Shown piece by piece: positions 35,571 through 39,906 of a stretch of 40,118 bases of DNA (positions within the stretch are counted from its first letter, which is position 1; the number at the start of each line of letters is the position of its first letter). Position numbers and translations under genes: made by a program. Below the pieces are notes generated by a model. It was not told where the DNA came from. It did no database searches and worked only from the letters and a program-made list of their open reading frames with translations. This DNA is from a bacterium (GTDB taxonomy: Bacteria > Patescibacteriota > Saccharimonadia > Saccharimonadales > UBA4665): the NCBI GenBank assembly GCA_021850365.1, contig JAJZMH010000009.1, forward strand, positions 1 through 40,118. Reading direction: 5' to 3'.

Positions 35571-37211
35571 ATGCTAAAAATGATTAGTCACACAGAACGT
35601 CTTATTTATGATTGTTCGATTTTTATATTATCTTGTTTTCTAATTATCTTTCTGTTCAATTTTAAATTGGCTTTTGCTAGGACAGGCTCCCCTATACCGC
35701 TGAACTATTCAATTTTAAACAGGGTTATAGTTGGACCAGATGGTGATTTATGGTTCGGAGACAATCAAAATAACCAAATCGATGTTATGAACACTTCTTC
35801 TCAGATAATTGCAACTTATCCAGTTTCTGGAGGAGCATATTCAATGGCAGTTGGATCTGATGGAAATATTTGGTTCACAAATCCAGTCAATAATACTATT
35901 GGTAAAATTACTCCTACTGGAACTGTTAGTACATATTTAATACCTACATCTAATAGTCAGCCAATGGACATTACTTTAGGACCTAATGGCAATTTATGGT
36001 TTACCGAATATGGGGGTAACAAAATAGGGACTATTACTACTTCTGGTGTAATTACTGAATATTCTATTCCAACTTCTGGGAGTGAACCTGTCAGTATTAC
36101 TTCAGGACCTGATGGCAATTTATGGTTTACCGAAGTTAATAGTAGTCAAATTGGTAAAATTAGTCCATCTGGAACTATTACTGAATATCCGACTCCGACC
36201 TCAAGTTCAGGTCCATGGGATATAACAACTGGACCTGATGGGAATTTATGGTTTACCGAAAATGGTGCTTCAAATATTGCTAAAATAACTACTTCTGGTG
36301 CCATTACGGAGTATCCTGCTTATCCTGCTTATAGTCCAGCACAAATTATAGATGGACCTGATGGTAATTTGTGGTTTAGCAATGTTTCAAACCATATATA
36401 CAGCTTAAATCCTAACACTGATACGATTAGCGCTTTTAGCGGATCAGAAGGATATATTTCAAATTTATTAGTAGGACCAGATAATAATATTTGGTATGCA
36501 TCGACTTATTATAATAATCCCATAGGCACTAGTGGCACTAATAGTAGCCTTATTAGCAATTATGTAATCAATAATAGTGGTAATTTCCATCAAAGATTTA
36601 CAACTATAAAGAATTCAAATAATTCTAAGGTTAGTTTATTTACTAGAACTAGTACCCAAATTTCATGTTCTGCGGCAATAAGCCAAAGTAATTTAACAAT
36701 AAATGATCCTAATTATAATTATCCTGATGGGCTGGTTAATCTATGTTTTTCAAAAAATCCCAATAACTTAAACTACGTCACTTTATTCTTCCAGACAAAT
36801 TTAACGCCAGCACAAGTTGTTGCAAGAGACTATAATCCACTTACAAAAACATTTATGAATGTTCCTGGAGCAGTTATAAATGAATCAAGTTTTAATGGTT
36901 TACCAGCATTAGAATTAACCTACAATATTCCATCCAATAGTCCCTTAAACTCTAGTTCTAATCCAAATATAATTGAAGATCCAGTAGGTCTTGGGGTTCC
37001 TACTAGCAATACGACCTCATCAACAACTACTACAAGTCCTCCATCTACTAACACTAGTTCAAAATTGACACCAGATACTGGAGCAGGAAAACCAATTAAT
37101 AAATTAAATCTAGTTTCTCCTATTATAATTTTGTCTTTCTTTGGTATTATTGTGTCTTTAGGTTATACTTCATATAAGAAGTTAACTACTCAAAGAAGCA
37201 AAAACAACTAA
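35571..37211 (+). CDS. Secreted beta-propeller surface protein with sortase-type C-terminus
   Basis: Likely a wall-anchored adhesin or binding protein. An N-terminal export signal (hydrophobic 15-31, possible cleavage after AFA at 36) leads to about seven repeats of ~42 residues built on GPDGNLWFTE and IGKITxSGxITEY. These are the Vgb/NHL-like propeller blades of streptogramin-lyase type proteins. A Cys-containing second domain (about 330-465) and a Ser/Thr-rich linker follow. The end is TPDTGAG (500-506), a hydrophobic helix (about 514-533) and a basic tail, the layout of a sortase substrate, with TPDTG in place of LPxTG. The catalytic context of a lyase is not evident. It converges on the sortase gene, overlapping it by 30 bp. 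Confidence 0.88.
   Translation: MLKMISHTERLIYDCSIFILSCFLIIFLFNFKLAFARTGSPIPLNYSILNRVIVGPDGDLWFGDNQNNQIDVMNTSSQIIATYPVSGGAYSMAVGSDGNIWFTNPVNNTIGKITPTGTVSTYLIPTSNSQPMDITLGPNGNLWFTEYGGNKIGTITTSGVITEYSIPTSGSEPVSITSGPDGNLWFTEVNSSQIGKISPSGTITEYPTPTSSSGPWDITTGPDGNLWFTENGASNIAKITTSGAITEYPAYPAYSPAQIIDGPDGNLWFSNVSNHIYSLNPNTDTISAFSGSEGYISNLLVGPDNNIWYASTYYNNPIGTSGTNSSLISNYVINNSGNFHQRFTTIKNSNNSKVSLFTRTSTQISCSAAISQSNLTINDPNYNYPDGLVNLCFSKNPNNLNYVTLFFQTNLTPAQVVARDYNPLTKTFMNVPGAVINESSFNGLPALELTYNIPSNSPLNSSSNPNIIEDPVGLGVPTSNTTSSTTTTSPPSTNTSSKLTPDTGAGKPINKLNLVSPIIILSFFGIIVSLGYTSYKKLTTQRSKNN
35850..36390 (+). repeat. In-frame tandem repeats of ~126 bp (propeller blades)
   Basis: The blade core is nearly identical at the DNA level in successive copies. 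GATGGCAATTTATGGTTTAC or a one- or two-base variant starts near 35983, 36109 and 36236, at a 126-127 bp period. More diverged copies occur before and after. Synonymous sites are also conserved, which suggests recent duplication or gene conversion. Confidence 0.75.
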
Positions 37212-37820
37212 TCTTTGATTAAACTCTGATGTGCCCTTAATGACAGATCCAGTACAAGTCATTAGGTTAAGACCTGGTAAATTGGGGTTTATTGGTGATA
37301 AGACCTGATTCATATTAACTGAGTTATATGGATATATTCTGACATTTTGAACTATGTATCTAAATATTTTACCCTCACCATTAGTAATATTTATTAAATC
37401 TCCTTTGGTTAGATATTTTAGGTTATAAAAAACACCCTTAGAGGTCCATGATGATACGTGACCATAAATAAACATTGCTCCCTTATTTCCTGGTAGGGCA
37501 GAATTCTTATACCACCCAGTTTCAAATACATTATCTGGGGTAGCAATAGATCCATTTGCCAATAATCCAAGACTAATAACAGGTATATTCTCTAGACCTA
37601 TCCTATTAATAGTTATGTATTTTGGGTATGTTCCGTTGCTAACCGTATAATTCTGGATAAATTGTTTGGTAAGTGGTTTTGAAGATGGTATATTAGATAA
37701 ATTTAAATTAGGAATCAATTTAAGATCATTATTTCCGTTTAATAGATAAATAGAGTAGATTAGTCCTAATACGGCTATAAATAGAACGATAGATATAAAT
37801 AAAATGGTCCTTTTTTTCAT
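37182..37820 (-). CDS. Sortase (class E/F-like transpeptidase)
   Basis: Cuts a C-terminal sorting signal and links the protein to peptidoglycan. The 212 residues have an N-terminal membrane anchor (6-26) and a sortase beta-barrel with the catalytic triad: H121 in FIYGHVSSW, C189 in LNLMTCTG and R203 in NQRLVVFA. The single N-terminal anchor, TCTG context and short length resemble class E/F housekeeping enzymes; the class is inference. It is the last gene of the grx-trxB-msrA-msrB operon (ATGA overlap with msrB). It faces a gene with a sorting-type C-terminus, the obvious candidate substrate. Confidence 0.93.
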   Translation of the reverse strand: MKKRTILFISIVLFIAVLGLIYSIYLLNGNNDLKLIPNLNLSNIPSSKPLTKQFIQNYTVSNGTYPKYITINRIGLENIPVISLGLLANGSIATPDNVFETGWYKNSALPGNKGAMFIYGHVSSWTSKGVFYNLKYLTKGDLINITNGEGKIFRYIVQNVRIYPYNSVNMNQVLSPINPNLPGLNLMTCTGSVIKGTSEFNQRLVVFASLSS

Positions 37821-38209
37821 ATTTTCTTATTTTTAAAGTTTAATGATATTGAGTTTATGCAGTATCTAATTCCAGTTGTTTCTTTCGGTCCATCATTAAA
37901 AACGTGTCCAAGGTGAGCGTGACAATTTGCACAGGTTATTTCAATCCTTTGCATATTATGAGATAGATCTACTGTTTCAAGTACGCTATTTTTAAGAGCA
38001 TTATCAAAACTAGGCCACCCACAGTTTGAATTAAATTTTGTTTTGGAATCAAATATTTTATTACCACAAGCTTTACATAGATAATACCCTTCCCTAGTTT
38101 CGGTTAATAAACTCCCACTAAATGGTATTTCGGTGTGTCCATTCTCGAGAACCTCTTTCTCTTCAGCAGTAAGTGTTGAATAGTATTTTGCCTTATTTCG
38201 ATCAATCAT
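37817..38209 (-). CDS. msrB: Peptide-methionine (R)-S-oxide reductase MsrB
   Basis: Reduces methionine R-sulfoxide in proteins. The zinc site C45-C48 and C93-C96, the possible resolving Cys C63 in NCGWPSF and the catalytic C117 in GIRYCINS are all present. 130 residues is full length. It overlaps msrA by one base (TAATG) and the sortase gene by 4 bp, so expression should be coupled. No signal peptide is seen, so it acts in the cytoplasm. Confidence 0.96.
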   Translation of the reverse strand: MIDRNKAKYYSTLTAEEKEVLENGHTEIPFSGSLLTETREGYYLCKACGNKIFDSKTKFNSNCGWPSFDNALKNSVLETVDLSHNMQRIEITCANCHAHLGHVFNDGPKETTGIRYCINSISLNFKNKKI

Positions 38210-38694
38210 TATATTAATTTTTGATCACTTCTAATAAAATGGCAAGTATATCCGCCTGGATGTTTTTTAAGATATTTCTGATGATATTCTTCGGCAGGAT
38301 AAAATGTATCAAATTTTTCTAATTTTGTAACAATTTTGTCTTTCCAAAAGTGAGTATTATCTATTTTTTGTATTATACTTTTTGCTACCTGAAAATCTTT
38401 TAGATCTCTATAGAAAATAACCGATCTATATGAAGATCCTAGATCATTTCCTTGTCTATTAATAGTTGTAGGATCATGAATTCTAAAAAAATAGTCTAAA
38501 ATATCTGCGTAAGATATTATTTTTGGATCATATACTATTTCAACGGTTTCTGCGTGTCCAGGATGATTCTGATAGGTTGGATTTTTGGTTTGACCTCCAC
38601 AATAGCCAACTTTAGTTTTAGTTACGCCTTCTAAATTAGAAAATAGCTCCTCTAATCCCCAAAAGCATCCTCCACCAAGATAAATTTTATTCAT
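38209..38694 (-). CDS. msrA: Peptide-methionine (S)-S-oxide reductase MsrA
   Basis: Reduces methionine S-sulfoxide. The catalytic motif GGGCFWGLEE (C10) is at the N-terminus. TKVGYCGG, NHPGHAETVEIVYDP and FFRIHDPTTINRQGNDLGSSYRS are the family blocks, and FYPAEEYHQKY is close to the end. 161 residues is normal. It directly abuts trxB and overlaps msrB by one base. Confidence 0.97.
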   Translation of the reverse strand: MNKIYLGGGCFWGLEELFSNLEGVTKTKVGYCGGQTKNPTYQNHPGHAETVEIVYDPKIISYADILDYFFRIHDPTTINRQGNDLGSSYRSVIFYRDLKDFQVAKSIIQKIDNTHFWKDKIVTKLEKFDTFYPAEEYHQKYLKKHPGGYTCHFIRSDQKLI

Positions 38695-39624
38695 TTATTT
38701 TTTTTCTAGATATTCACGAATTTTTAAGGCTGCCGTTGCACCTTCTCCTGATGCAGAAGCGATTTGCATCGTTGCACCGCTTCTGACATCTCCGGCTGCA
38801 AATACCCCAGGAAGATTAGTTTCTAAATTTAAATTTGTTTTAATAAAGTTTCTATCGTCTAAATCAATTAGTCCTTTAAGAAAAGCTGTATTTGGCAAAA
38901 GTCCAACAAATATAAAGACACCATCAACATTTAAGTCCGATACCTCACCATCCTGATTAATTTCAATTTTATTGACTAAATTATTTTCGCCCTTTATCTG
39001 GTTAATTGTAGTTTTTAGATGGACTTTTACTTTTCCACTATCAATATGCCTTTGAAGTTCCTTAATTAATACATCACTTGCTTTAATGGTTGATCTAACT
39101 AATAAATCAATGCTCGATGCGTACCTTGTTAAAAAAAGAGTTTCTTGAACTGCTGAGTTTCCACCTCCGACTACAGCTATTGGTTTATCCCTATAAAATG
39201 CACCATCACATGTAGCACAATAATGTACGCCACGAGATAAATATTCTTTTTCGCCAGGTACATCTATCTTTTTATAATCTGTTCCTGTAGCTATAAGGAC
39301 AGTTTTAGCTCTATATTGATTGATCTCGCCTTGAAGTAATTTATATTTTCCTTCATCTTTAATGGAATTAATCTGATCATATTCAATTTTTGTACCAAAT
39401 CTTTCGGCTTGTTTAGATAATTCATCAGATAACTCTAACCCAGAAATTCCTTTAGAAAAACCTGGATAATTATCTATAAGATCAGTTACTGAAGCCATAC
39501 CACCAATAGCTCCTTTTTCGATTAAAAGAGTTTCAATATCTTCTCTGGTGGTATAGATAGCAGCAGTTAGGGCTGCAGGACCAGCACCAATAACCACAAG
39601 ATCATATACTTTATCTTGATTCAT
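38695..39624 (-). CDS. trxB: Thioredoxin reductase
   Basis: A flavoprotein that passes electrons from NADPH to a thioredoxin or glutaredoxin-like partner. It has the FAD motif GAGPAA (13-18), the redox pair C136-C139 in CATC, the NADPH motif VGGGNSAVQE near 152 and the C-terminal FAD motif GVFAAGDVRSG. 309 residues is full length. It follows the glutaredoxin-like gene by 30 nt and abuts msrA, which suggests that the encoded system feeds the methionine sulfoxide reductases. Confidence 0.96.
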   Translation of the reverse strand: MNQDKVYDLVVIGAGPAALTAAIYTTREDIETLLIEKGAIGGMASVTDLIDNYPGFSKGISGLELSDELSKQAERFGTKIEYDQINSIKDEGKYKLLQGEINQYRAKTVLIATGTDYKKIDVPGEKEYLSRGVHYCATCDGAFYRDKPIAVVGGGNSAVQETLFLTRYASSIDLLVRSTIKASDVLIKELQRHIDSGKVKVHLKTTINQIKGENNLVNKIEINQDGEVSDLNVDGVFIFVGLLPNTAFLKGLIDLDDRNFIKTNLNLETNLPGVFAAGDVRSGATMQIASASGEGATAALKIREYLEKK

Positions 39625-39654
39625 TAATACGATTATACCTTCTTTAATGCTTTT

Positions 39655-39906
39655 TTAGGCAGAAATTGCAGGGGCTAATTTAGACAAATTATATCCTACG
39701 ATTACTTCTCTACTATCATCTTCCTTAGTAACTACAGTAACTGGTACTGTCAATGCTCCCGAAATAGTTAAAGCTTCTTGTCTTTTTGCTGGATTTTCAT
39801 CGAGATTAACTTCTTCATAATTAATTCCCTTAATTCCAAGATATTTTTTAACCATTCCGCAATAACCACATTGATTGGTGGTGAAAATTGTAACTTTCTT
39901 AGGCAT
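39655..39906 (-). CDS. Glutaredoxin-like/NrdH-like redox protein
   Basis: An 83-residue thioredoxin-fold protein with the redox pair C13-C16 in NQCGYCGMVKKYL and the cis-Pro loop ALTVPVTVV. The small size and NLDENPAKRQEALTISGALTVPV layout resemble YruB/NrdH-type glutaredoxin-like proteins, which are often reduced by thioredoxin reductase. trxB is the next gene, so TrxB is the likely reductant, by inference. AGAGGA precedes the ATG and a promoter lies at 39959-39987. First gene of the redox-sortase operon. Confidence 0.92.
   Translation of the reverse strand: MPKKVTIFTTNQCGYCGMVKKYLGIKGINYEEVNLDENPAKRQEALTISGALTVPVTVVTKEDDSREVIVGYNLSKLAPAISA

Follow-up and report, generated by a model that had tools for sequence, protein, structure and literature searches.

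Sorting signals without a leading Leu are, as such, already known. SrtB of Clostridioides difficile, described as a class B sortase, is reported to cut SPKTG (PMC4371152), and the evolved Staphylococcus aureus SrtA variants F1-21 and F40 are reported to target APXTG/APATG; in the excerpted passages of the latter review, APXTG is given solely for evolved SrtA variants (PMC9126251). The class E sortase SrtE1 of Streptomyces is described as taking LAXTG (PMC5148588). For class F, excerpts of a study in Actinoplanes describe a search for NPXTG, SPXTG, PPXTG and other motifs, and there the deletion of four class F genes gave no phenotype (PMC13251363). The sortase family is reported from more than half of CPR genomes (PMC6744442), and cultivated members of the lineage considered here are said to include epibionts (PMC12857230). 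A full-text search, outside of which most subscription journals fall, returned no paper linking a sortase to APDTG, TPDTG or APNTG, and within the same scope apparently nothing on sorting signals in work on sortases in Saccharibacteria or TM7x. Here we analyze a sortase gene that faces the gene of a protein ending in TPDTG, in a 40,118-nucleotide stretch of DNA (the window) that is contig 11 of a 35-contig genome totaling 653,293 bases, with a completeness of 91%.

A sortase gene and its putative substrate

The two open reading frames, one of 546 aa on the plus strand (35571 to 37211) and one of 212 aa on the minus strand (37182 to 37820), converge and overlap by 30 bp (37182 to 37211), exactly as the initial annotation had described them. 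Close packing is general among related pairs: in all 32 pairs that could be resolved, the window's included, no more than 100 bp separates the sortase gene from its substrate gene. Ten of these are convergent, 21 are tandem with the substrate first, and one has the sortase first. All ten convergent pairs have a short sortase (<250 aa), and a tree built from 41 sortases puts the window enzyme in a 13-row group (99/99), to which 8 of the 9 convergent members in the tree belong. We rejected the idea that the convergent layout marks one clean clade, since five changes are needed on the tree, for which the bootstrap values are rough. On the minus strand the sortase gene is the last of a tight run (37182 to 39906) that also holds glutaredoxin-like, thioredoxin reductase-like, msrA and msrB genes, and it overlaps msrB by 4 bp. 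Apart from the window's own copy, msrA-msrB was found beside the sortase in none of 116 other loci scanned, and a functional link between them was therefore dropped. A PHROGs search gave a weak short-repeat match only.

The 546-residue protein is built from several modules, all encoded on the plus strand. It starts with a predicted signal peptide (35571 to 35678), seen by eye in the translation as a hydrophobic helix ending in KLAFA before R37, and modeled as a helix at residues 2 to 29. There follows a seven-bladed Vgb-like β-propeller (35706 to 36506), identified from a Pfam Vgb_lyase match (7.2e-74, 248.6 bits), from blade W-motifs at residues 60, 100, 142, 184, 226, 267 and 307, and from the structure model. 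Next are a pre-anchor β-sandwich module at approximately residues 344 to 477 (36600 to 37000), apparently akin to choice-of-anchor U modules of substrates that are unrelated elsewhere, and a Ser/Thr/Pro-rich linker that is predicted to be disordered (37008 to 37067; pLDDT about 30). The chain closes with the sorting signal (37068 to 37208), in which TPDTG AGKP is followed by a hydrophobic helix, residues 512 to 545 in the model, and a basic tail. The model, built with 10 aligned sequences, is mostly confident for the propeller strands, moderate for the sandwich, and disordered around the motif.

The pre-anchor module of the window protein has no direct match in NCBIfam, choice-of-anchor U (NF041766) included. 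It is 46-47% identical to the equivalent modules of two related loci, L049 and L052, the N-terminal parts of which look unrelated to the propeller. A further locus with the same C-terminus as L049 (L018) matches the choice-of-anchor U model at 56.7 bits against a cut-off of 32, and the module was recognized in 4 of 31 signal-bearing neighbors. A similar pre-anchor module on substrates whose N-termini look unrelated supports a display module with changing cargo, and the propeller is probably a binding module mounted on such a swappable domain.

The gene on the minus strand (37182 to 37820) encodes a class F-like sortase, assigned from Pfam, NCBIfam, alignments and a structure model, with a predicted N-terminal membrane helix (residues 2 to 32) and an extracellular catalytic domain. 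It matches the Pfam Sortase family (PF04203) at 72.5 bits, above the cut-off of 26.6. H121, C189 and R203 lie where the initial annotation placed them, and they are invariant across 41 aligned relatives. The model has a mean pLDDT of 93 and places a helix at the same N-terminal residues; the fold matches listed are all sortases, with Z of about 14-16 over 126-143 residues, and as classes A, C, D, E and F all fall within Z 14-16 the fold leaves the class undecided. Among the seven NCBIfam models listed, class F (NF033748) is the best at 100.5 bits, which is under its curated cut-off of 166; four related sortases score about 108-113 bits and one from Bacillaceae (L089) scores 154. Judged from its alignment and model, the enzyme has intact predicted catalytic residues and a sortase β-barrel. 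Many related sortases, among them those of L028, L033 and L059, carry an N-terminal extension of roughly 100-170 residues before the membrane helix, and these extended enzymes (open reading frames of 320-400 aa) mostly stand in tandem with TPDTGF- or APDTGF-like substrates.

Sorting signals across related genomes

The C-terminus of the window protein, SSKLTPDTGAGKPINKLNLVSPIIILSFFGIIVSLGYTSYKKLTTQRSKNN, bears out the earlier description: TPDTG is followed by a hydrophobic helix and then by a basic tail. This is the architecture of an LPXTG signal, with Thr instead of Leu in the first motif position. The initial annotation had also pointed to a Leu one residue before TPDTG; this residue carries no meaning in relatives, most of which have G, K or T there. 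General models do not recognize the signal: the window tail had no match to sorting-signal models at E 1, and PF00746 at E 10 found two weak places elsewhere in the same genome and missed it. Among 19 tails tested from proteins paired with class F-like sortases, the window's included, only that of the Bacillaceae locus L089 passes an LPXTG-anchor cut-off.

In the 653,293 bases of the window's genome, two places fit the codon pattern for PDTG, and only the window copy ends a long open reading frame before a hydrophobic helix. The pattern for [A/T/S/P]PxTG occurs 14 times, again with the window copy as the only sorting signal, and that for [L/F]PxTG occurs 11 times. These three codon patterns, by which the genome was approached, leave exactly two signals, TPDTG in the window and LPNTG elsewhere; any signal that has V, I, N, G, K or Q as its first residue may be missed. 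This is what the collection of signals that had been proposed as a check yields. Standard LPxTG motifs alone among the other substrates had been named as evidence against an altered specificity; the one other signal found is of this kind, however the genome holds a second, different sortase that can account for it.

Over 148 related genomes, [A/T]PDTG[F/Y] as a codon pattern gave 25 matches in 21 genomes against 6 for a reversed control; of these 25, 17 proved to be genuine signals at a C-terminus. The pattern PxTGxGxP showed no excess (34 against 34 in the reversed control), and 15 of the 30 loci read from it have real signals. Both reversed-control counts were made by hand.

At an E of 0.001 the window sortase has matches in 89 of the 148 genomes; at the weak end, some of them overlap the other sortase type discussed below. 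We read 70 neighborhoods, comprising 30 loci from the sortase search (with the window's own, L016) and 40 added by falling score, a choice that left out some partial or lower-scoring rows. One adjacent protein with xPxTG, a helix and a basic tail is present in 40 of the 70, counting open reading frames of at least 150 aa whose signal lies no more than 60 residues from the end. This filter dropped TPDTG in L043 (a 78-aa frame starting near the locus edge), YPTTG in L160 (110 aa), VPETG in L177 (140 aa) and PPLTG in L044 (69 from the end). In the 40 signals the residue before Pro is A in 19, T in 12, S and V in two each, and N, I, K, Q and L in one each; the third position is D in 24, N in 11, V in three, and K and Q in one each; and Gly is followed by F in 24, Y in five, L in four, and others in fewer. 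The longer signal PxTGxGxP, common to the window's group and fitted by its TPDTGAGKP, is found in 8 of the 40. The altered specificity proposed from the window alone is thus well supported by comparison (Leu in 1 of 40), as a rule of the lineage and not a peculiarity of this locus.

The share of neighborhoods with a signal is higher among closer relatives, 20/30 for L016-L045 and 18/25 for L150-L174, than among the most distant, 2/15 for L175-L189, where one of the two signals is LPNTG (L183). The 30 neighborhoods with no adjacent signal passing the filter include those of the nearest sortases in both same-genus genomes (L021 and L022). Two other genomes (G055 and G030) have a sortase with no adjacent signal and a matching signal elsewhere in the genome.

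A second data set, of 47 named related loci with 650 open reading frames of at least 120 aa, is mostly labeled Candidatus Saccharibacteria or Patescibacteria and includes the complete chromosome CP025011.1; a single-sequence scan of the genome contigs found nothing, and an alignment query worked. The combination of xPxTG, helix and basic tail has 32 matches in 31 loci of this set, well above chance, as 13 control motifs have 0-4 matches each; two of the 32 look spurious by eye (SPFTG in L061 and PPLTG in L088). Among these frames the first residue is A in 13, T in 10, S and M in three each, and N, V and P in one each, with Leu in none. An LPKTG does occur in L061, where an open frame of 82 aa at the edge of the locus carries it, some 6 kb away from the sortase. 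Met as first residue comes from the three Bacillaceae loci (L089, L091 and L092), where class F-like sortases lie directly downstream of MPQTG/MPKTG proteins. The proteins that carry the signals are diverse: the 31 signal-bearing neighbors match 37 Pfam families, the commonest of them in five. Vgb propellers are found in five, and kelch, BNR, subtilase, cohesin, DUF4397 and ice-binding domains in fewer. As these neighbors were picked for carrying.P.TG, their P, T and G could not vary; the preferences for Ala/Thr, Asp/Asn and Phe/Tyr do not arise in this way.

A second sortase and the competing readings

The window's genome encodes one further sortase, nearest to class E, and this type is found in 144 of the 148 relatives. 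None of 30 loci has an accepted signal beside it, the one hit being an antisense false hit. The LPNTG signal of the genome belongs to a DUF11-type surface protein (G000:C19:22318-23682; L012, L190) that ends in LPNTGPG. C-termini of this family were readable in 27 of 30 loci under a looser filter with no demand for a basic tail (13 of 30 under the strict filter), and 26 have Leu and one Met. The difference in Leu, 1 of 40 beside the class F-like sortases against 26 of 27 in the LPNTGPG family, gives a Fisher p of 2.6e-16, which overstates independence, since the rows and loci share ancestry. LPNTGPG is presumably handled by the class E-like sortase, which is nearly universal.

The DUF11-type protein, which weakly matches an isopeptide-forming fimbrial domain, has relatives in 88 of the 148 genomes, and its gene adjoins one that by eye resembles a conjugation-type ATPase. 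At its own C-terminus the class E-like sortase has a tail that resembles a sorting signal, a motif followed by a membrane helix and basic residues (L001, G000:C3:1-781; L120-L149). Over 30 loci the motif in this tail is LPGNGP in 24, LPSNGP in four and LPGDGP in one, with LPSDAQ as the exception. The tail resembles the LPNTGPG of the presumed substrate, Asn taking the place of the cut-site Thr, and from its sequence it is possibly a self-processing site or pseudosubstrate.

We consider that the two genes of the window probably form an accessory class F-like sortase and its dedicated [A/T]PxTG substrate, beside a housekeeping LPxTG lane, and we put the probability of this reading at roughly 0.78. 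It draws on the anatomy of the two proteins, the predicted fold, the conserved catalytic residues, the recurring adjacency and the two signal consensuses in the lineage. A single sortase could instead serve all signals, with the class E-like enzyme processing TPDTG proteins as well and the neighboring sortase otherwise employed, for example in pilus assembly. Its presence in 144 of 148 relatives, against 89 for the class F-like type with the weakest of these apparently cross-hits, suits such a role. However, 40 of 70 neighborhoods have an [A/T]PxTG-type protein next to the class F-like gene, 0 of 30 have one with an accepted signal next to the other sortase, and the neighbors share no common pilin family, so we regard this arrangement as unlikely.

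We likewise doubt that the enzyme is a broad xPxTG sortase with no preference at the first position, with Ala and Thr arising from composition or descent. Nine of the 40 signals do start with S, V, N, I, K, Q or L, and Met is used in the three Bacillaceae relatives, but Ala or Thr in 31 of 40 extends across otherwise mostly unrelated substrates, and Leu is retained in 26 of 27 members of a different family from this lineage. That the C-terminal helix serves simply to anchor the protein in the membrane, with TPDTG before it by chance, is highly improbable, even if Thr/Pro-rich linkers may ease the formation of such strings: the adjacent sortase has its catalytic residues intact, and across one set of open reading frames the motif has 32 matches where 13 control motifs have 0-4 each.

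In the dedicated-pair reading, the propeller protein would be exported by Sec and halted in the membrane by its C-terminal helix and basic tail, and would there offer its disordered TPDTG segment to the sortase, itself tethered to the membrane. We infer that Cys189, with His121 and Arg203, would cut between Thr and Gly, and that the protein would be transferred to a cell-wall amine, probably lipid II or a peptidoglycan stem peptide. The subsite for the first residue may take a small residue, Ala or Thr, and not Leu, which would keep the accessory cargo apart from LPNTGPG cargo. Extending this to Saccharibacteria at large, we lean toward two orthogonal lanes, with a nearly universal sortase and LPNTGPG on one side and, on the other, an accessory class F-like sortase with a natural [A/T]PxTG signal (PxTGxGxP in the window's subgroup) and a swappable displayed domain. 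If the enzyme reads an [A/T]PxTG tag, cells of this group would decorate their surface through two separate lanes, and a constant signal and pre-anchor module with a swapped display domain would give an epibiont lineage a changeable surface platform. The initial annotation had seen in such a protein a candidate for host contact. A C-terminal [A/T]PxTG would then flag probable display cargo that LPXTG models miss, and a single odd motif becomes a testable rule for a lineage with a hard-to-study surface.

Comparison with known systems

The propeller resembles the virginiamycin B lyases VgbA and VgbB in fold and sequence, and differs in scoring 198 and 182 against NCBIfam cut-offs of 600 and in having no His at the two lyase histidine positions. 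VgbA His228 and His270 are presumably the catalytic histidines of streptogramin lyase. The window protein has three His among 546 residues, one of them (H275) within the propeller, and none at the P-H blade positions seen in the VgbA chains 2z2n and 2z2p. We therefore rejected a streptogramin lyase reading.

Class F of Actinobacteria and Bacillaceae is the best NCBIfam class for the sortase, although the enzyme falls below the curated cut-off. In the tree the Saccharibacterial enzymes stand apart from the three of Bacillaceae, and their signals mostly have Ala or Thr instead of Met or Leu, in contrast to MPQTG/MPKTG in Bacillaceae. The NCBIfam GVDTG sorting domain (NF058571) matches the tail of the related class F locus L089 and none of the 18 Saccharibacterial tails tested.

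SrtE1 and its LAXTG offer a parallel in that the signal leaves LPXTG at one position and the fold matches at Z of about 15, however the departure there is at Pro and the window's is at Leu. C. difficile SrtB, from what is described of it, is a demonstrated natural sortase with a first residue other than Leu; it differs in being class B and in having Ser/Pro in place of Ala/Thr. The evolved SrtA variants F1-21 and F40, as presented in the review excerpts, share the acceptance of Ala in the first position, and in their case it came from directed evolution, whereas here the preference is apparently natural. Natural APxTG or TPxTG sortases would be useful as ligases orthogonal to LPXTG enzymes.
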